A stretch of DNA of 64,000 nt from Bacillota bacterium (GTDB taxonomy: Bacteria > Bacillota > Clostridia > Lachnospirales > Bianqueaceae): NCBI GenBank assembly GCA_017442535.1, contig JAFRZL010000015.1, positions 1-64,000 on the forward strand, written 5' to 3'. The translations under genes were made by a program, and so were the position numbers. Every line of letters starts with the position of its first letter. The first letter of the stretch is position 1. This document shows, piece by piece, positions 14,761 to 52,936 of the stretch. A model generated the notes under the pieces. That model saw nothing but the letters and a program-made list of their open reading frames with translations. It ran no database searches and was not told the origin of the DNA.

Positions 14761-17288
<2,528 letters not shown>

Positions 17289-38393: not shown

Positions 38394-40100
38394 ATGCTGC
38401 TGCATTTAAGAGTGCAGAATTTTGCACTGATCGACGATGTTGAACTGGATCTCGAAGAGGGTCTGAATATCCTGACGGGCGAGACCGGCGCCGGTAAAAG
38501 CCTTATTATGGGGGCAGTGAATCTGGCGCTTGGAGCGCGCGTCAGCCGCGAGCTGCTGCGCGACGCCGAACAGCCTGCTCAGGTGGATCTCTTATTTGAT
38601 GTTACCGGTCTGCCTGCTGAGGAAGCGCTTCGCCGGGAGGAGCTGCTTGACGGTGATAGCGGAGAAGTCCTGCTTTCCCGACGCATTGCGCCGAATGGCC
38701 GCGCCGTAAACCGGCTGAATGATCAGATCGTGACGGCATCCGTGCTGCAGCGTGCGGCCGCCATCCTGATCGATGTGCATGGCCAGCATGAACACCAGTC
38801 CCTGCTGGACGCTTCCCGCCATATCGATCTGCTGGATCGTTTTGACGACCGGACCAGGGCCTGCAAAGACAAATTGACAGGACTGCTGGCACAGCGCCGC
38901 GCCGCATCGGCCGAGCTTGAACGCTGGCAGAGCCAGGCCGAGGACAAGGACCGCCTGCTCTCGCTGATGGAGTTCGAGGCGCAGGAGATCGACGAGGCGG
39001 AGCTGCGCGAGGGTGAGGAAGAAGAATTGCTCGCTTTCACACGCATGGCCCGCTCATCCGTCCGTCTGCAGGAAACCTGTCAGCTCGCCTATGCCGCGCT
39101 CCGGGGACAGGAGGATTATGGCGGCGGAGCATTGGACATGCTTGGCGAAGCACTGCTGCAGCTGCAGCGGATCGAGGATCTGGATGCGGCCCATCTTTCC
39201 GATATGGTGAATGAACTATCCGACGCGGTCAGTCTGGCCGAGGACGCATCGGTTTCGATCAGGCGCTATTCCGAATCGCTCGAATACGACCCCGAGGCAC
39301 TCGCAGAGGCCGAGAACCGTCTGGAACTGATTCGGCATCTTAAGAGCAAATTCGGAAACGGTTATGAAGCGATCATGAAATACCGGCGGGATCTGGAGGA
39401 GTCGATCCGCAAAATCACGCATATCAACGACACACTGGATCAGCTGGAAGCAGAGCTTGCCCGGATACGACGCGGGATGGAAGAGATCTGCGCCGAGCTT
39501 ACCGCGATCCGTCAGACCGTGGCGGCTGATATTTCAGCCAGGATCACGCAGGTGCTTACGACTCTGCAATTCCAGGATCCCGAATTTGCCGTACAGGTAA
39601 CGCCGCGCGCAGAGATCGGCCCCAAGGGCGCTGACAGTGTGCAGTTCATGATCCGCACCAACGTGGGAGATGTCCTCAGACCTCTGGACAAGATCGCTTC
39701 AGGCGGCGAAATCAGCCGCATCATGCTCGCGATCAAGACCGTCCTGGCGGATCGCGACGAGATCCCGACCCTGATCTTCGACGAAATCGATGCGGGGATC
39801 AGCGGCCGTACCGCCCAGCGTGTCGCGGAAAAACTCGCGATGATCGCGCGTTATCATCAAATCATTTGCATCACACATCTGCCGCAGATCGCGGCTATGG
39901 CAGACTGCCATTTGTACATCGAGAAAACGGTGCATAACGGAAGAGCCCGTACGGAGGTCACACGCCTTACGGAGGAGGCATCCGTTCAGGAGCTCGGCCG
40001 CATGTTGGGCGGAACCGAACTGACCGAATCGGCCATCCTGAATGCACAGGAGATCAAGCGGCTCGCCGCCGAATGGAAGAGAAAGGAGCTTAATCAGTGA
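38394..40100 (+). CDS. recN: DNA repair protein RecN
   Basis: SMC-like ATPase of double-strand break repair. It has 568 residues: N-terminal half of the ATPase with Walker A LTGETGAGKSLIMGAVNLAL and HGQHEHQSLLDASRHIDLLD, a central coiled coil (about 155-370), and the C-terminal half with signature KIASGGEISRIMLAIK and Walker B LIFDEIDAGISGRTAQ, then ITHLPQIAAMADCHLYIEK. The ATG is 3 bases after the argR stop. In spore-formers spoIVB and spo0A follow; here the next gene is an alpha/beta hydrolase whose GTG overlaps the recN stop. Confidence 0.96.
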   Translation: MLLHLRVQNFALIDDVELDLEEGLNILTGETGAGKSLIMGAVNLALGARVSRELLRDAEQPAQVDLLFDVTGLPAEEALRREELLDGDSGEVLLSRRIAPNGRAVNRLNDQIVTASVLQRAAAILIDVHGQHEHQSLLDASRHIDLLDRFDDRTRACKDKLTGLLAQRRAASAELERWQSQAEDKDRLLSLMEFEAQEIDEAELREGEEEELLAFTRMARSSVRLQETCQLAYAALRGQEDYGGGALDMLGEALLQLQRIEDLDAAHLSDMVNELSDAVSLAEDASVSIRRYSESLEYDPEALAEAENRLELIRHLKSKFGNGYEAIMKYRRDLEESIRKITHINDTLDQLEAELARIRRGMEEICAELTAIRQTVAADISARITQVLTTLQFQDPEFAVQVTPRAEIGPKGADSVQFMIRTNVGDVLRPLDKIASGGEISRIMLAIKTVLADRDEIPTLIFDEIDAGISGRTAQRVAEKLAMIARYHQIICITHLPQIAAMADCHLYIEKTVHNGRARTEVTRLTEEASVQELGRMLGGTELTESAILNAQEIKRLAAEWKRKELNQ

Positions 40101-41107
40101 ATACGGAACGCTTTGAAGACAAAATCCGCTGGAGCAGAGTAGAGAGTTATGAAGAGCATTATTCTCCGTACTGTGATCAGGTCTATTACACATCCTCTCA
40201 GGACCCCGCGCTGCAGCTCGCCATGCGGGTTGAGAAGCCCGCTGTACCCGGCCCGATCCTCGTGATGACCCATGGCTGGCACCAGACCATCGTGCCCTTC
40301 GAACCATGGGAGGAACCCGGTGATTCTCCCTATCTGGTAATCCAGGTGGATATGCGCGGCCGTTCTTTTTCCATGGGGCAGGCAGACTGCAACGGGTATG
40401 AGCTGATGGATATTTATGATGCCGTTCAGGCGGCCCGTTCCCGCTACGCGGACTATATCAGCGATCCGGAACTGGTCTATTTTGAAGCCGGCAGCGGCGG
40501 CGGAGGCAACGCCTTCGCACTCGCGGGCAAGTTCCCGGACTTTTTCGCGGCAGTGAACGCGCTCTACGGCATCAGCGATTATGCGGAGTGGTATCGCTGC
40601 GATTACGTGGGCGAATTCCGGGATGAACTGGATGTGTGGGTCGGCAAAGATCCTGATCTGGATCCCATGGCTTACGCTGCACGTTCCGGTCTGACAACGG
40701 TTCGCAATCTTCTCAGCCCGATCTTTATCACACACGGGGCTCTTGATCCGCGCGTACCCGTTTACCATTCCCGGATGTTTGTCGAAGCTGCCAAGGCCGC
40801 CGGCAAAACCGATCTAATCACGTATTATGAGATGGAAGGCGTCGGCATGCCCAAGCATATCAGCGGGGCTACGCAGGATCAGCTGGATACCATGCGGACG
40901 CTTGCAGACCGAAATCTGATGCTGCACTCGTCACCGATCGAACTGCCCCGTAAAGGTTCTCTCATTGTTGCGGGCTACGTCGTCACCAAGCATTTCAAGG
41001 TCTTCCTGGACTCGCTGGACAAGGTCGCCAGACTGAATTATGATCTGGATGAGGATTCCTTCAGCCTGGAGTGCAGCGTCCCCTGCGAATACCGTATCGA
41101 GAAGTAA
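40097..41107 (+). CDS. Alpha/beta hydrolase (acetylxylan esterase / prolyl oligopeptidase-like)
   Basis: Cytoplasmic serine hydrolase of 336 residues; no signal peptide. After an N-terminal lead, LVMTHGWHQT carries the oxyanion-hole His-Gly; the nucleophile Ser is probably in FEAGSGGGGNAFALAGKFP, the acid in FITHGALDPRVPV and the His near GMPKHISGA. The layout resembles cephalosporin-C deacetylase and acyl esterases, but the elbow is rich in Gly and the substrate cannot be named. It begins with GTG overlapping the recN stop, with AAAGGAG 8 bases upstream. It may be transcribed with recN, but a functional tie is unlikely. Confidence 0.75.
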   Translation: MNTERFEDKIRWSRVESYEEHYSPYCDQVYYTSSQDPALQLAMRVEKPAVPGPILVMTHGWHQTIVPFEPWEEPGDSPYLVIQVDMRGRSFSMGQADCNGYELMDIYDAVQAARSRYADYISDPELVYFEAGSGGGGNAFALAGKFPDFFAAVNALYGISDYAEWYRCDYVGEFRDELDVWVGKDPDLDPMAYAARSGLTTVRNLLSPIFITHGALDPRVPVYHSRMFVEAAKAAGKTDLITYYEMEGVGMPKHISGATQDQLDTMRTLADRNLMLHSSPIELPRKGSLIVAGYVVTKHFKVFLDSLDKVARLNYDLDEDSFSLECSVPCEYRIEK

Positions 41108-41145
41108 AAAGGCTGCGCAAGCGGTCCGAAGGGAGGTGAGGATGG

Positions 41146-42348
41146 ATGACTTTAGAGGAAGAAGCCAGGCTTTCATATTACCGGAAAGTGACGGAACTTG
41201 ACGCTCAGCGTCATATGGAACTGGTCAAACATGTCGAGACCCAGCGCCTCTGCATCCGCAAGGAGCTTTCGGTTTATTCGCTTGGAGTTTATCAGTTTCT
41301 GCAGAAGCATCACATCGCTCACACACCCGAGATCCTGGAGCTGGTGGAGGATGACGGTCGACTGATCGTGATCGAGGAGTATCTGAGTGGTATCAATCTG
41401 CAGGATATTCTGAACCATGAAGGCTGCCTGCCCTACGAGCGGGCTCTTGATATTACGATACGCCTGTGCCGGATCCTTCGGGATTTCCACGCCTGCCAGC
41501 CGCCTATCATCAACCGCGATATCAAGCCTTCCAATCTGGTAATATCCTCTTCCGGCGAGGTGCAGCTCGTGGATCTTAATGCCGCGAAATGGCTTAATAC
41601 GGAGGAAAAACGCGATACCGAACTGATCGGTACACAAGGTTATGCCGCTCCTGAGCAGTATGGGTTCGCTCCGTCCGATATCCGCACGGACATCTATGCG
41701 GTGGGCGTGCTGCTGAACAGGCTGCTTACCGGCAAGCTTCCCAGGGAAGAAGTCCCGGACGGGCCCGTGGGAGCCGTGATCCTGCGCTGCACCCAGATCG
41801 ATCCTGCTATGCGCTACTCAAACACGGACGAACTGATGACCGCGCTGGAAGTACTGATGCAAGAATACCGGATCCATCACGGCGGGCAGGGATCGGACGA
41901 ACAGCCGCAGAATATGACGGAATGGATGAACAGGCCCAAGCGGACCGGTGAGAAAACTTCCTTCGGCAGAAGCACGTTTGAGTCATCCAGGGATCCGGAT
42001 GGACCTCCGGCTTACTGCATGAGTTACCTGCCGCCCGGAATTCGCTCCGATAAATGGATCATCCGGATCATCTCCGCCGCCGTCTACATCTTCCTTATCG
42101 TGGTCTGCCTGGATATGCAGATCCAGAAGGAAGGTCAGGGCTACCTGACCGGCTGGCCGCTCTGGGTCTATCGTATCGCGGCTCTGCTGATCATTCTGCT
42201 GGAAACCGCTTTCTGGGGCAATTACAGAGGCATCCAGCACCGCATCGGTTTGTACCGCTTATCACCTGCCGCACGCTGGATCATCCGCATTCTGATCGGC
42301 ATCGGCATCCTGTTCGGAATGCTTTTACTGATTATGATCTTCTCATAG
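41146..42348 (+). CDS. Membrane-anchored Ser/Thr protein kinase with degenerate P-loop
   Basis: Hanks-type kinase of 400 residues. The catalytic loop is INRDIKPSNLVI (Arg124-Asp125, Lys127, Asn130), the metal site is VDLNAAK (Asp143 in place of DFG), and the activation segment is LIGTQGYAAPEQYGF. The Gly-rich ATP loop is missing: the equivalent region reads TELDAQRHMELVKH. The VAIK lysine is probably Lys39 in IRKEL. The C-terminus has three membrane segments (about 300-322, 341-360, 377-400), so the kinase faces the cytoplasm. GGGAGGTG precedes the ATG by 7 bases. It is followed by an HTH-like gene and a zinc-ribbon membrane protein, a pattern I recall from Clostridia. Confidence 0.85.
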   Translation: MTLEEEARLSYYRKVTELDAQRHMELVKHVETQRLCIRKELSVYSLGVYQFLQKHHIAHTPEILELVEDDGRLIVIEEYLSGINLQDILNHEGCLPYERALDITIRLCRILRDFHACQPPIINRDIKPSNLVISSSGEVQLVDLNAAKWLNTEEKRDTELIGTQGYAAPEQYGFAPSDIRTDIYAVGVLLNRLLTGKLPREEVPDGPVGAVILRCTQIDPAMRYSNTDELMTALEVLMQEYRIHHGGQGSDEQPQNMTEWMNRPKRTGEKTSFGRSTFESSRDPDGPPAYCMSYLPPGIRSDKWIIRIISAAVYIFLIVVCLDMQIQKEGQGYLTGWPLWVYRIAALLIILLETAFWGNYRGIQHRIGLYRLSPAARWIIRILIGIGILFGMLLLIMIFS

Positions 42349-42359
42349 GGGGTTAGGCC

Positions 42360-42812
42360 ATGAAGACCACGGACCAATTGAATCAGGCGCTTAGTCAGGG
42401 CAATCTGTCGGAATATTACGAACAGTTTGAGGACAAACTGGCCGACCCCGACAAGCCTTTTGCCGCTTATATGCGCAGGATTATCCGCTCCAAAGGCCTC
42501 CTGCAGCAAACCGTTTTTCTGAGGGCCGATATCCCCGAACGCTACGGCTACAAGCTGATCAGCGAGGAAAAGCATACGCGTCAGCGCGATGTGATCCTGC
42601 GTCTATGCCTGGCGGCGCATTGCTCGCTGACTGAGGTCAACCGTGCGCTGCAGCTATACTCTATGTCGCCGCTGTATCCGCGGATCCGCCGCGACGCCGC
42701 CTTTATCATTGCGTTTAACACAGGCCTTTACGAGATCGAGGCGGTGGAGGAGTTGCTCCGTGCGCATCAACTGGAGCCGCTCTACGCCTGCACTCCCGCG
42801 GACGATCTGTAA
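42360..42812 (+). CDS. Helix-rich protein resembling a diverged XRE/HTH regulator (kinase partner)
   Basis: Protein of 150 residues, 11 bases after the kinase gene. The middle section RSKGLLQQTVFLRADIPERY, followed by KLISEEKHTRQRDVILRLCL and AHCSLTEVNRALQLYSMSPLYPRIRRDAAFIIAFNTGL, has the helical order and spacing of XRE-type HTH proteins (compare ...GLSRSEVIRRSGLDRTYGYQI..GKKNPSRDKLLALALA..) but with changed recognition residues. I recall such proteins beside this type of kinase in Clostridia. It may be a substrate or output of the kinase. DNA binding is uncertain. Confidence 0.6.
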   Translation: MKTTDQLNQALSQGNLSEYYEQFEDKLADPDKPFAAYMRRIIRSKGLLQQTVFLRADIPERYGYKLISEEKHTRQRDVILRLCLAAHCSLTEVNRALQLYSMSPLYPRIRRDAAFIIAFNTGLYEIEAVEELLRAHQLEPLYACTPADDL

Positions 42813-42850
42813 TTCCCACCCCTGCGGTGGCAATAGCCCTCCCTTGGTTA

Positions 42851-42859
42851 TGATATAAT
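42851..42859 (+). promoter_or_regulatory. Extended -10 promoter before the zinc-ribbon membrane protein
   Basis: TGATATAAT (42851-42859) is an extended -10 element; no good -35 is seen. A small hairpin CCACC / GGTGG (42817-42830) sits between the previous stop and this promoter. Confidence 0.6.
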
Positions 42860-42894
42860 CTTTGCAAAAGAATCAACCAATGGAGGGATTTTTA

Positions 42895-43998
42895 ATGAGT
42901 AAAAAGAATAACGATATGAAAGTATGTCCCAATTGCGGGAGCGCGATCAGCAGCAAGGCCAAAACCTGCCCCAACTGCGGCACTAAATTCAGCGTCAAAA
43001 AGCCGTTTTTCCTGCGCCCGTGGTTTCTGATCCTGACAGCAGTGATCCTGGTGATCATCATCGTCGTACCAAAGGGCGGCAGCAGTGATGGCGGGGAGAG
43101 CAGCCGTGCTGAATCAAAATCTGCTCAGGAGAGCGGCAAGCAGAATACGAGCCGCGCCGAATCCTCAAAAAAAGAGGAATCATCCATCCCTGAAATCAAA
43201 GACGCCTATGTTGTCGGAGATGAACTGCTCGAGGGCGGCTTCCGCATCGTCTATGTCGCGAGCGGCCTCTACCAGACGGATAACGAATTCATGCAGCCCG
43301 CCGAAGGCAATCAGCACATTTTCCTGAAGTTTGCTTTTATCAATGAATCTAAAAATGACAAGAGCATCAGTTCCTTCAGCTTTGAGTGCTATGCAGACGG
43401 ATATGTACAGGAAGCGCACTATTTCGGCGACGAAGAGCTCTCCGCCTCGCTCTCGTCCGGCCGTCAGACCATGGGCATGCTGTTTTTTGAGGTCCCCAAG
43501 GATGCCAAGGAGATCGAAGTGGAGTATGAAAGCAATTTCTTCAGCGATAAAAAGATCCGCTTCCTCTATGAAGGCGAAAAGGATTCCGGTTTCCAGCTGA
43601 CACCGAACACCACCCGCACCGAAGGGGCTCTGAATCCGGGCGATACAGTCAGCACGTCCAACCTCAAGATCACATATCTTTCTTGCAGCGAGTACAAGAG
43701 TGACAACATGTTTATCCAGCCGCCCGAAGGTTATCATTTCTATCAGATAGAGCTTGAATTCGAGAATATCGGTTCTTCTGATCAGGTTGTCAGCGCCCTT
43801 GACTTTAACTGCTATGCGGACGGAACTGCCTGCGAACAAAGCTATCTCGCTGATAACGACCTTTCCGGCACCTTATCTGCCGGCCGCAAACTCAAAGGCA
43901 CCGTTACCTTTGCCATTCCGGACGGGGCCACCGTCGCCGAAGCCGAATTCGAAGAAAATATCTGGACCGGCAATCATATTGTTTTTACCATGCGCTAG
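42895..43998 (+). CDS. Zinc-ribbon membrane protein with two extracellular DUF4352-like domains
   Basis: Protein of 367 residues. A zinc ribbon lies at 10-30 (VCPNCGSAISS and TCPNCGTKF), a membrane segment at about 40-62, a Ser/Glu-rich linker (65-100), then two related domains of about 115 residues: FRIVYVASGLYQTDNEFMQP...FECYADG and LKITYLSCSEYKSDNMFIQP...FNCYADG. The duplication is clear from shared F/Y-x-CYADG and LSAGR-KLxG motifs. The fold recalls the DUF4352 beta-sandwich. The ATG at 42895 follows GGAGGG by 7 bases. It lies beside the kinase pair and may be a sensor or substrate of it. Confidence 0.75.
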   Translation: MSKKNNDMKVCPNCGSAISSKAKTCPNCGTKFSVKKPFFLRPWFLILTAVILVIIIVVPKGGSSDGGESSRAESKSAQESGKQNTSRAESSKKEESSIPEIKDAYVVGDELLEGGFRIVYVASGLYQTDNEFMQPAEGNQHIFLKFAFINESKNDKSISSFSFECYADGYVQEAHYFGDEELSASLSSGRQTMGMLFFEVPKDAKEIEVEYESNFFSDKKIRFLYEGEKDSGFQLTPNTTRTEGALNPGDTVSTSNLKITYLSCSEYKSDNMFIQPPEGYHFYQIELEFENIGSSDQVVSALDFNCYADGTACEQSYLADNDLSGTLSAGRKLKGTVTFAIPDGATVAEAEFEENIWTGNHIVFTMR

Positions 43999-44027
43999 TT
44001 GCATTGTCCATGAAATGATGGTATACT
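43999..44027 (+). promoter_or_regulatory. Promoter of the flavin-fold gene
   Basis: TTGCAT (43999-44004) and TATACT (44022-44027) are 17 bases apart, again with TGG before the -10. The -35 begins just after the previous stop codon. Confidence 0.8.
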
Positions 44028-44057
44028 ATAGCCATCCATTCATGAGGAGGAATCAAT

Positions 44058-44459
44058 ATGAAAGCTATTGAAAAGGTATATCAGTTCCTGGAAGACGCCG
44101 GCACTTACTACCTGGCCACCGTAGAAGGCGACCAGCCCCGCGTCCGTCCCTTTGGCACCATCCTGCTTTTTGAGGATAAACTTTACATCCAGACGGGTAA
44201 AATCAAACCCGTCTCGCATCAGCTCGCCGCTAATCCAAAAGCCGAGATCTGCGCCTTCAAAGATGGCTGCTGGCTCCGTCTCACCTGCGAATTGATCAAC
44301 GACGACCGCCGCGCCCCCAAAGCCGCAATGCTCGACAAAATGCCCAGCCTCAAAGCCATGTACAGCGCCGACGATAACAACACGCAGGTCCTCTACGTTC
44401 AAAACGCCACAGCTACTTTCAGCAGCTTTACCACTGCGCCTGAGGTCGTAGAGTTCTGA
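44058..44459 (+). CDS. Pyridoxamine 5'-phosphate oxidase family protein (FMN split barrel)
   Basis: Small flavin-binding type protein of 133 residues. Family pattern: VYQFLEDAGTYYLATVEGDQPRVRPFGTILLFEDKLY-like core (seen as AGTYYLATVEGDQPRVRPFG), YIQTGKIKPVSHQLAANPKAEIC and a final beta-strand region. Such proteins bind FMN or a related cofactor and often act as reductases of unknown substrate. AGGAGGAATCA precedes the ATG. It has its own promoter and is ended by a shared convergent terminator. Confidence 0.85.
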   Translation: MKAIEKVYQFLEDAGTYYLATVEGDQPRVRPFGTILLFEDKLYIQTGKIKPVSHQLAANPKAEICAFKDGCWLRLTCELINDDRRAPKAAMLDKMPSLKAMYSADDNNTQVLYVQNATATFSSFTTAPEVVEF

Positions 44460-44496
44460 TCGCCGTGAAGCACTTTCCGTGCTTCATGCTTCATTC

Positions 44497-44535
44497 AAAA
44501 AAGACATAGGGTAGATGAGGACCTATGTCTTTTTT
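44497..44535. terminator. Strong bidirectional terminator
   Basis: A perfect 14-bp stem AAAAAAGACATAGG (44497-44510) / CCTATGTCTTTTTT (44522-44535) with an 11-base loop serves both converging genes. The last codons of the minus-strand nuclease gene lie inside the right arm. A second hairpin GAAGCAC / GTGCTTC lies at about 44467-44485. Confidence 0.93.
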
Positions 44536-45227
44536 GTTGTGGAGCAGAGCTGAGCAACATGTTCGACCCAGGCGCGGAAACGTCGCTTGACCATTTCCAT
44601 ATCAAGCGGATCTTCACGGGTGATAAAGATTCTTTCTCCTTCGCTGATGCCCATTTCCTCCATTCTGGCGGCTTTCCATTCATTTGAACGGTTATATCCT
44701 TCCTCCGTCTTTCCCTGATGCTCCCACCAACACTCAAGCGCAAGCTCCATCGAAAAATCCGGCCTTATAATCGATCCGTCGAGCAGTCTAAGCGGCTTTT
44801 CGTAGCAAAACTGAATCCCTTCCGACATCAGAAAATCTGAAATCATTGCTTCGGATTTAGAGCGTACGAAATCCCCGTGCATCGTATAGATGTTATACCC
44901 GGGAGAGCGCTTGCGTGACGCAATCCATTTTGCTAAACTACGCCGGCGGTCTTGCCTTAGCTGCCTATGGATCTCCTGCCTGAGCATAAAATCGTTTGTC
45001 TTTAGCTTCTCCATCATCGGTGCAATCATTGACTCCAGGTGCTTAGCCTCATTCAAATCTGCCTTCATCTTCATTAACTCTTCACCACGCAGCGTCTGCC
45101 GGAGCAATTGGCCATGATCATAATACTGAAATTCTGCCTGAAGCCCAAAACGCCCTACATGCTCTCTGCGCAGCACACCCGATGTAATCATTCCCAGCCT
45201 ATTCACTAAAGCCATCAATTCATCCAT
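44523..45227 (-). CDS. PD-(D/E)XK-like nuclease family protein
   Basis: Protein of 234 residues. The N-terminal 100 residues are helical and basic; the C-terminal part has the layout of a PD-(D/E)XK nuclease: Glu126 in VRSKSEAMISDFLMSEGI, Asp157 in IIRPDFSMEL, Glu169-His170 in CWWEHQGK with Lys173, then a Tyr/Arg/Lys-rich helix EGYNRSNEWKAARMEEMGIS and IFITREDPLD. Catalytic geometry is inferred from spacing only. The stop codon overlaps the terminator. Upstream lie a promoter, an 18-bp perfect inverted repeat and a repeat array. The target is unknown; defence or housekeeping of repeats are both possible. Confidence 0.65.
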   Translation of the reverse strand: MDELMALVNRLGMITSGVLRREHVGRFGLQAEFQYYDHGQLLRQTLRGEELMKMKADLNEAKHLESMIAPMMEKLKTNDFMLRQEIHRQLRQDRRRSLAKWIASRKRSPGYNIYTMHGDFVRSKSEAMISDFLMSEGIQFCYEKPLRLLDGSIIRPDFSMELALECWWEHQGKTEEGYNRSNEWKAARMEEMGISEGERIFITREDPLDMEMVKRRFRAWVEHVAQLCSTTKKT

Positions 45228-45247
45228 ACAAGCACCTCCACAGAAAG

Positions 45248-45276
45248 ATCATATCACCTTTTTCTCTGGTTGGCAA
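45248..45276 (-). promoter_or_regulatory. Promoter of the nuclease-like gene
   Basis: On the minus strand TTGCCA (45276-45271) and TATGAT (45253-45248) are 17 bases apart. The long inverted repeat begins 1 base upstream of the -35. Confidence 0.7.
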
Positions 45277-45277
45277 A

Positions 45278-45320
45278 TTCCTGTTAGTACATAAATATAG
45301 GGTTTATGTACTAACAGGAA
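45278..45320. repeat. Perfect 18-bp inverted repeat upstream of the nuclease-like gene
   Basis: TTCCTGTTAGTACATAAA (45278-45295) and its exact complement (45303-45320) enclose a 7-base loop, TATAGGG. It abuts the -35 of the minus-strand promoter. No T-run follows on either strand, so an operator or recombination site is more likely than a terminator. Confidence 0.9.
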
Positions 45321-45340
45321 TAATAATCTCCAAATTACTT

Positions 45341-45522
45341 GAAAGTCTATGCCACCGCCATAGAGAATCACGGAAAGTCTATGCCACCGTCATAGAGAAT
45401 CGCGGAAAGTCTATGCCACCGCCATAGAGAATCGCCGAAAATCTATGCCACCGTCATAGAGAATCACCAAAAGTCTATGCCATCGTCATAGAGAATCACC
45501 AAAAGTCTATGCCACCGCTATG
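45341..45522. repeat. Tandem array 1 of 32-bp repeats
   Basis: Five full units and one partial, with exact period 32 (unit starts 45341, 45373, 45405, 45437, 45469, 45501). Each holds AAAGTCTATGCCACCG then (C/T)CATAGAGAATC. CTATG and CATAG form a short dyad around a 7-base middle. Units differ mainly at two or three positions. A related array lies at 52681-52936. Confidence 0.95.
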
Positions 45523-45587
45523 TGAATGCAGTATGCCTTCAAAGCAAGTCTATGAAAGAGCTGACTGCAAGCATGAACGCAAGCATC

Positions 45588-45625
45588 AAAAAACCTCTCG
45601 CGCCAAATCGACGCAAGAGGTTTTT
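45588..45625 (-). terminator. Terminator of the 6S RNA/tRNA-Ala unit
   Basis: AAACCTCTCGCG and CGCAAGAGGTTT form a long stem with a 9-base loop (one mismatch). On the minus strand the hairpin is followed by a run of six T (plus-strand A at 45588-45593). Confidence 0.85.
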
Positions 45626-45634
45626 GAATGTGAG

Positions 45635-45707
45635 TGGAGACGAAGGGATTCGAACCCTCGACCTCTCGGATGCGAACCGAACGCTCTCCCAGCTGAGCTA
45701 CGCCCCC
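45635..45707 (-). tRNA. tRNA-Ala (anticodon CGC)
   Basis: Full cloverleaf on the minus strand: acceptor GGGGGCG / CGTCTCC with the G3-U70 wobble pair that marks tRNA-Ala, D arm GCTC...GAGC, anticodon arm TTCGG-TTCGCAT-CCGAG (anticodon CGC, reads GCG), T arm GAGGG-TTCGAAT-CCCTT, discriminator A. CCA is not encoded. It lies about 28 bases after the 6S RNA. Confidence 0.95.
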
Positions 45708-45734
45708 GCACATGCCTGAAAAACAGGGCATAAA

Positions 45735-45927
45735 TCAACCCGAGATGCCGACGCCTGAAATTTGATCCCTAGCAATATGCTAGGTGGGTGTTCGCAGTAA
45801 CTACGCTGCCATCCCCTGCCTGTAAACAGGAATTAGCTTGGGGCCCGACATTGTAGGCTAGGCATATAAAACTCCCAATCTCAAGGTGTAGGTTCAAATA
45901 CACAAGCTATCGCACATCCCAGGATGC
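45735..45927 (-). ncRNA. ssrS: 6S RNA (RNA polymerase regulator)
   Basis: About 193 bases from a good promoter. The 5' part CCTGGGATGTGCGATAGC and the 3' part GGCGTCGGCATCTCGGG closely match the ends of known 6S RNA (E. coli CTGAGATGTTCGCAAGC and GGCGGCATCTCGGAG), and they pair in a 9-bp closing stem (45915-45923 with 45739-45747). The central part has TACTGCGAACACCCACC and the hairpin CCTAGCA-TAT-TGCTAGG where E. coli has CTGCGACGACACATTCACC and a hairpin. 6S RNA binds housekeeping RNA polymerase by mimicking an open promoter. The exact ends are estimated. Confidence 0.88.
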
Positions 45928-45933
45928 AAGCAT

Positions 45934-45962
45934 ATTATACCGCAAAAAGCCCCCGGATGCAA
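45934..45962 (-). promoter_or_regulatory. Promoter of the 6S RNA
   Basis: On the minus strand TTGCAT (45962-45957) and TATAAT (45939-45934) are 17 bases apart; the expected RNA start is near 45927. Confidence 0.88.
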
Positions 45963-46112
45963 CCCCTTTTTGAAAAAAAGCTGAGAATTCTTCCGGCCGG
46001 CCCAAAAGTTTTACTCCGTCCCCCGCATATCGCTTTTCCGATTATCCCGTACCACCCGGGAACCATCACATCCAAAACAACCCGAAACCTATTATTATGC
46101 TTCTGCAGAGAG

Positions 46113-46141
46113 TTGAAATCCCGCGGATAATATGCTATACT
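46113..46141 (+). promoter_or_regulatory. Promoter of the zinc-ribbon/pectinesterase unit
   Basis: TTGAAA (46113-46118) and TATACT (46136-46141) are 17 bases apart, 35 bases before the zinc-ribbon gene. Confidence 0.8.
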
Positions 46142-46175
46142 TTGACCATAGACTCCAATTAGACGGAGGTGTGTG

Positions 46176-46427
46176 ATGCGTTGCTCAATTTGCGGGGCCA
46201 GGCTGCTGGCCGATGCATGTTACTGCCATAACTGTGGCAGAAAGCTTTCAGAGGCCGAGAAAGCAAGACTTCAGTCCGGCGGGCTCGGGCTGTTTGGCCG
46301 GCGCCGTGGTAAACCAGCGCACGGCGGTGTACATACAGGGCCTGTCTGGTTAAATGATGGCTGGCATCAGGGGCTTGCGAAACTTCGCCGCGAACGTGAG
46401 GATGAAGATCCTCATGTCAGAAAATAA
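46176..46427 (+). CDS. Small zinc-ribbon protein
   Basis: Protein of 83 residues. The N-terminus is a zinc ribbon: MRCSICGARLLADACYCHNCGRK with CxxC pairs at Cys3/Cys6 and Cys17/Cys20. The rest is basic and polar with no recognisable domain. The ATG at 46176 follows GGAGGT by 5 bases; GTG 46173 is too close. It has a good promoter and lies 25 bases before a pectinesterase gene, so the two may be cotranscribed. No function can be stated; a protein or nucleic-acid binding adaptor is possible. Confidence 0.7.
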   Translation: MRCSICGARLLADACYCHNCGRKLSEAEKARLQSGGLGLFGRRRGKPAHGGVHTGPVWLNDGWHQGLAKLRREREDEDPHVRK

Positions 46428-52680: not shown

Positions 52681-52936
52681 AAAAGTCTATGCCACGTGCA
52701 TAGAGAAACGCCAATAGTCTATGCCACGGGCATAGAGAACCGCCAAAAGTCTATGCCAGTGGCATACAGAAATGCCGAAAGACTATGCCCGTGGCATAGA
52801 GAAATGCCAAAAGCCTATGCCACAGGCATAGAGAAACGCCAAAAGTCTATGCCACTGGCATAAAGAAATGCCGAAAGACTATGCCAGTGGCATAGAGAAA
52901 CGCCAAAAGTCTATGCCACGGGCATAGAGAACCACC
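52681..52936. repeat. Tandem array 2 of 32-bp palindromic repeats
   Basis: Eight full units, exact period 32, starts at 52681, 52713, 52745, 52777, 52809, 52841, 52873 and 52905. The unit is roughly RAAAGTCTATGCC-NNN-GGCATAGAGAAACGCC; CTATGCC and GGCATAG are a 7-bp dyad around a 3-base loop. Loop triplets read ACG, ACG, AGT, CGT, ACA, ACT, AGT, ACG; flanks are nearly constant. It lies before the terminator at 52971. An open frame through it is a by-product of the repeat. Confidence 0.97.

Follow-up and report, generated by a model that had tools for sequence, protein, structure and literature searches.

A perfect palindrome at the promoter of a nuclease-like gene in a Bacillota bacterium, and the tandem palindrome arrays found beside genes of the same family

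The stretch of DNA analysed here (hereafter the window) comprises the first 64,000 nucleotides of contig JAFRZL010000015.1 from a Bacillota bacterium (assembly GCA_017442535.1), and it carries a perfect inverted repeat that lies, as an earlier note made from the letters alone had placed it, between a minus-strand gene for a nuclease-like protein and an array of tandem repeats. The genes for tRNA-Ala and 6S RNA share the strand of the nuclease-like gene and lie upstream of the palindrome. The features of the region are as follows:

44496–44536, minus strand: 15-bp inverted repeat with A/T tails, terminator-like, at the 3' end of the nuclease-like gene
44523–45227, minus strand: gene for a 234-residue protein; its family is uncharacterised and has the PD-(D/E)XK-like motifs SKSE, PDF and EHxG (from alignment and profiles)
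45248–45276, minus strand: sigma-70-like promoter, with -35 TTGCCA (45276–45271), a 17-nt spacer and -10 TATGAT (45253–45248)
45277–45321, no strand assigned: perfect inverted repeat with 19-bp arms and a 7-nt loop (from sequence, fold and Markov simulation)
45341–45518, no strand assigned: tandem array of 32-bp units, 5.6 copies, with short palindromes TCTATG-N7-CATAGA, a word also present in other arrays of the genome
45584–45630: terminator-like inverted repeat after tRNA-Ala
45634–45707, minus strand: tRNA-Ala, anticodon cgc
45733–45928, minus strand: 6S RNA

In the window recN and the 6S RNA are 5.6 kb apart (38394–45928), with other genes between them and recN on the tRNA side; in two relatives (G001 and G002; loci L145 and L146) recN adjoins the 6S RNA.

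The earlier note had described a palindrome of 43 bases with 18-bp arms; we confirmed its existence and its 7-base loop (TATAGGG, 45296–45302) but found it to be larger, the arms (45277–45295 and 45303–45321) pairing perfectly over 19 bp and the whole repeat covering 45 bases. As noted earlier, there is no T-run on either flank, and arms of such length are rare by chance; the longest perfect arm in 20 simulated 64-kb windows (first-order Markov, loop of 3–14) was 11, so that the palindrome is not a product of chance. The palindrome is AT-rich (29% GC, vs. 47% for positions 44500–46000), and its strand folded as RNA is very stable (-29.1 kcal/mol, z = -7.3), with none of 200 shuffled sequences being as stable. 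In 1.87 Mb of related loci we counted 15 perfect inverted repeats with arms of at least 17 bp, six of them without a T-run; palindromes with such long perfect arms are rare, but this one is not unique in kind. The end of the palindrome at 45277 directly abuts the -35 element of the minus-strand promoter, in agreement with the earlier description. This promoter matches 10 of 12 consensus positions, has a TG before its -10 element and ranks in the top two among promoter-like sites in the region; a GGAGGTG ribosome-binding site and the ATG at 45227 follow downstream, 49 bp separating the palindrome from this start codon.

Searches of Pfam, NCBIfam and PHROGs returned no credible match for the family of the 234-residue protein. 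An alignment of 77 family members showed the motifs SKSE, PDF and EHxG, with E126, D157 and E169 conserved at 99%; E126, P156-D157 and E169 (each conserved at 90% or more) agree with the acidic motif residues of PD-(D/E)XK nucleases, whereas the lysine of the (D/E)xK motif is missing, the family reading EHxG, and a conserved lysine is present at position 124 (SKSE). Among 18 family members examined with PADLOC profiles, all 18 matched PDC-S68, 16 matched PDC-S69 and 10 matched HEAT_CxxC_PDDEXK, while Bax1 and endodeoxyribonuclease I profiles gave weak hits (E-values of 0.2–0.9). A single-sequence structure model of the protein had a mean pLDDT of 41, too low for its fold to be read; the earlier designation as nuclease-like finds support in the conserved motifs but not in a confident fold. 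Judged by these motifs, the family is an uncharacterised, multi-copy one of PD-(D/E)XK-like type. It was identified in 97 of 392 genomes of the order (profile, E-values of 1e-6 or less), and at the same threshold the genome of the window has three matches, as opposed to one by single-sequence search. The single-sequence search matched 21 of 58 genomes, this genome included, the best foreign homolog by E-value being 32% identical; there is no close ortholog among these 58 genomes. No relatives were identified in viral contigs by two single-protein scans, and a protein scan of genome_contigs, a large genome collection, also identified none; there were three weak unannotated matches in phage records, and nine plasmid records had a match to part of it, located for the most part within genes annotated as AAA family ATPase or helicase. 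Many family genes sit at contig ends (the first or last kb), as would happen if neighboring repeats interrupted the assemblies.

The earlier note had proposed searching for the arm elsewhere in the genome and upstream of homologous genes, and both searches were negative, the homologs examined being distant ones. The 18-bp arm had no other match with three or fewer mismatches in the genome of the window (2,248,545 bases in 52 contigs, ~80% complete), the core palindrome was missing from all 18 further genomes with the family (19 in total), and it had no match in genome_contigs, from which very near genomes have possibly been left out. Nor was its sequence seen upstream of distant homologs, at 29 homolog loci. 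A loose pair of its outer words, TTCCTGT...ACAGGAA with a similar span, occurs at two places in the genome, and its reversed control at one. An orthologous empty site was not readable from the 6S RNA loci of four relatives, as of 11 window genes tested only recN lay near the 6S RNA of relatives, and only in two of the four.

Many family genes lie beside tandem arrays. As a first set we used 80 loci (L056–L135) fetched from 91 listed places outside the window's own genome, and as a hold-out set 60 loci (L183–L242) from genomes outside the first 58, these being the top of the profile-match list rather than all listed places. An array was defined as a TRF repeat with a period of 28–200 and at least two copies within 500 bp of the gene, with the same thresholds in the hold-out, and the controls were 357 other ORFs of at least 200 residues more than 2 kb away (first set) and 320 genes keeping clear of every family gene (hold-out). 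Arrays were found at 29/80 family loci vs. 10/357 controls in the first set and at 32/60 family loci vs. 15/320 controls in the hold-out, where they were mostly upstream of the family gene. Coverage by arrays in the first set was 9.6% of bases at 0–250 bp from the gene and 12% at 250–500 bp, vs. 0.2–0.4% beyond 2 kb, and the units of these arrays mostly contained palindromes. Many array palindromes span ~35–41 bp (some only by eye in the other phase of the array).

The periods of the arrays at the 140 loci (31/32, 42, 52–54, 62–64, 73–75, 83–87, 94/95 and 105) suggested whole turns of the DNA helix. Taking the smallest period per locus, we found clustering on whole turns in the first set (n = 29) to be best at 10.8 bp (R 0.84; R 0.80 at 10.5 bp) and in the hold-out (n = 32) at 10.5 bp (R 0.73, phase near 0), whereas arrays more than 2 kb from family genes (n = 19 and 22) had an R of 0.28 in each case. 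The nominal p-value for this clustering, ~4e-8, is too small, since some of the loci depend on one another, five close paralogs coming from G005 alone. Whole-turn periods would suit a protein that binds one face of double-stranded DNA. The five G005 paralogs (L126, L127, L128, L131 and L134) are 81–86% identical over gene and array, with no similarity seen in their flanks, and the gene and its array therefore appear to multiply as a unit. This association of the family with helically phased arrays is a stronger and more interesting result than the palindrome itself; a description of such a nuclease–array association was not present in the literature searched, comprising listings, the starts of abstracts, PMC3733652 and PMC12306157, with preprints and most subscription papers falling outside.

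The words of the arrays are also dispersed round genomes. In the complete genome G331, GTACCCC-N(18–28)-GGGGTAC occurs at 41 sites (its reversed control at none), mostly 38 bp long, often 94 bp apart (nine turns) and clustered round the genome with varying inner sequence, one cluster lying directly upstream of a family gene (L229). A 13-mer from an array upstream of a family gene in G012 was counted 33 times (control, 0); its copies form several clusters, with spacings close to multiples of 31 bp. The genome of the window has 22 exact TCTATG-N7-CATAGA sites on three contigs, in 32-bp arrays, and related arrays on two more contigs; 32-bp arrays with CTATG...CATAG are found in the window at 52681–52931 as well as at 45341–45518, and on four other contigs (L149–L152). 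Based on their dispersal in these three genomes, the array words can be regarded as dispersed sites of a REP-like kind. They do not include the window palindrome: it has no word in common with the adjacent TCTATG array, and its center is 56 bp from the first array unit, which is not a whole number of turns. The words differ from gene to gene, and no inverted 7-mer was obtained from 19 of the 61 array loci. Loci having an inverted 7-mer in common encoded proteins with a mean identity of 60% (six pairs), vs. 35% for 814 pairs, and none of 2000 permutations gave a value as high. We considered cognacy between word and protein as a reason for this and set it aside, as the signal comes from three close pairs, for which common descent may be a sufficient explanation, and word sharing was absent from pairs that are 64% and 60% identical.

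Some family genes without an array have a single palindrome instead. We searched up to 300 bp upstream of family genes with no array within 1 kb for gapped palindromes without a T-run and spanning 34–48 bp, and found them at 8/43 genes in the first set (vs. 8/326 control ORFs) and 8/23 genes in the hold-out (vs. 11/294), although some of these array-free loci may hide degenerate arrays missed by TRF. When restricted to genes with intergenic upstream DNA, the counts were 8/31 vs. 6/148 (p = 5e-4) and 8/23 vs. 11/182 (p = 2.5e-4), respectively; these p-values are nominal, as the span range was chosen after the palindromes of both sets had been inspected, and the hold-out is consequently blind for the arrays and not for the lone palindromes. 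By its place and its 45-bp span the window palindrome fits this class, but it is an atypical member, with 19-bp arms and a 7-nt gap vs. arms mostly of 7–13 bp and gaps of 14–26. Long perfect hairpins without a T-run (arms of at least 17 bp) are not enriched at family genes, since only one of the six was within 300 bp of such a gene when ~0.65 would be expected from the 10.8% of bases (in 1.87 Mb) that lie so close. A palindrome with 20-bp arms located 3' of the homolog at L062 was rejected as an example of the same architecture; TTTTT follows it, and it is more likely the terminator of that gene.

We tentatively favor reading the palindrome as a cis site close to the promoter of the nuclease-like gene; a dyad operator is its most likely form, and the nuclease-like protein itself the likeliest binder. 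A dimeric protein would bind the dyad just upstream of the -35 element, with its center at about -59 from the inferred transcription start, and if the binder were the nuclease-like protein, the outcome may be autoregulation or the recognition of its own sites, which is our leading mechanism and an unproven one. We take this protein as the likeliest binder because locus-specific palindromes, either single or in phased arrays, recur beside genes of the family. What the analysis shows is the palindrome, the promoter match, the family and its association with palindromes and arrays, whereas protein binding here, the identity of the binder and any effect on transcription are inferred. The operator suggested in the earlier note accordingly agrees with the position of the palindrome and has indirect support from the lone palindromes that recur upstream of family genes, while the binding itself is a matter of inference. 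The main rival, and a serious one that we consider possible if somewhat improbable, is that of a neutral hairpin which came to lie near a promoter by accident and has no regulatory role. Template switching during replication can turn an imperfect inverted repeat into a perfect one, and such an origin would account for perfect 19-bp arms that exceed what a typical operator needs; it also agrees with a single-copy sequence conserved nowhere searched, and with the presence of about six long perfect hairpins lacking a T-run per 1.87 Mb of related loci, mostly away from family genes. However, this palindrome abuts a good promoter, and palindromes of 34–48 bp are enriched upstream of the gene family.

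We think it unlikely that the palindrome is the relic or a variant unit of an array, now single, whose word this nuclease or a paralog since lost once recognized. Its span is near that of array units, arrays adjoin family genes with words that differ from gene to gene, and within one genome such words are dispersed, as in G331 and G012; its fully paired arms are nevertheless unlike array units, and the genome has only one other pair of its outer words, as many as for the reversed control. There is still less to recommend a hairpin acting at the RNA level, by which read-through transcripts from the 6S RNA and tRNA-Ala genes would be stopped, ended or insulated before the nuclease gene: the stability of the fold and the location of both genes upstream on the same strand are in keeping with it, but the palindrome lacks the T-run of an intrinsic terminator and is therefore not one, a terminator-like repeat already follows the tRNA, and the palindrome lies ahead of the inferred transcription start of the nuclease gene. 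Finally, the two other suggestions of the earlier note, a recombinase site and a mobile-element end or its scar, are very improbable. The multiplication of gene–array units in G005 could be taken in their favor, but the palindrome itself had no further copy in any of the genomes searched, unlike the several copies expected of a mobile-element end, MITE or REP, and is thus unlikely to be a dispersed element end. It is not flanked by a repeated 13-mer (in 40000–46200 outside the array), and integration linked to the tRNA was discarded as a candidate, as the 3' end of the tRNA does not recur in the window at four or fewer mismatches.

The cis site that we favor resembles the dyad operators of dimeric bacterial regulators in being an inverted repeat that adjoins the -35 element of a sigma-70-like promoter, and differs from them in its unusually long and perfect arms. 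The arrays of the family, as opposed to the palindrome, recall REP/REPIN sequences and their RAYT (TnpA-REP) proteins, being short dispersed extragenic palindromes with one set beside a nuclease-like gene; however, no Y1 (HUH) transposase family was among the Pfam matches of 18 family members, the family protein instead has PD-(D/E)XK-like motifs, the arrays are helically phased with locus-specific words, and the window palindrome, unlike a REP or REPIN, is single copy. The C-terminal domain of the family matches the PADLOC profiles for the candidate PDC-S68 and for HEAT_CxxC_PDDEXK nuclease domains, but the PDC-S68 profiles have ~1200 positions and are matched near their ends, whereas our protein has 234 residues, its N-terminal part is short and palindromes adjoin its gene. 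Both iterons and centromere-like repeats are phased protein sites located beside the gene for their own binding protein. Family arrays are like these in being phased sites beside the gene of their likely binder, and unlike them in being chromosomal and dispersed, with palindromic units of ~38 bp and a nuclease-like protein. We speculate, while regarding it as doubtful, that the palindrome may be a cis site within a hitherto undescribed class of self-associated nuclease genes, whose small PD-(D/E)XK-like proteins would recognize gene-specific palindromes of ~38 bp both beside their own gene and genome-wide in whole-turn arrays, a REP-like arrangement with a nuclease other than RAYT. On its own the palindrome would be an ordinary promoter-side dyad, and its importance is that it led to a nuclease-like family tied to arrays. 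If the protein does read the array words, the family would represent a REP-like genome-wide system of DNA sites with an unrelated nuclease, and could serve as a test bed for the joint evolution of a protein and a repeat family.

Some further repeats were observed in the course of these searches. At L227 (7667–7968) the inner parts of the array units include both CACA..TGTG and CACG..CGTG, which by eye suggests a compensatory change within a small inner hairpin. The window also has an 18-bp tandem repeat of 4.8 copies at 17160–17246, and elsewhere in the same genome (L149, 3151–3285) a second array, with 39-bp units (AGAAGACGTCTCCGTCCC...), directly adjoins a 32-bp array.
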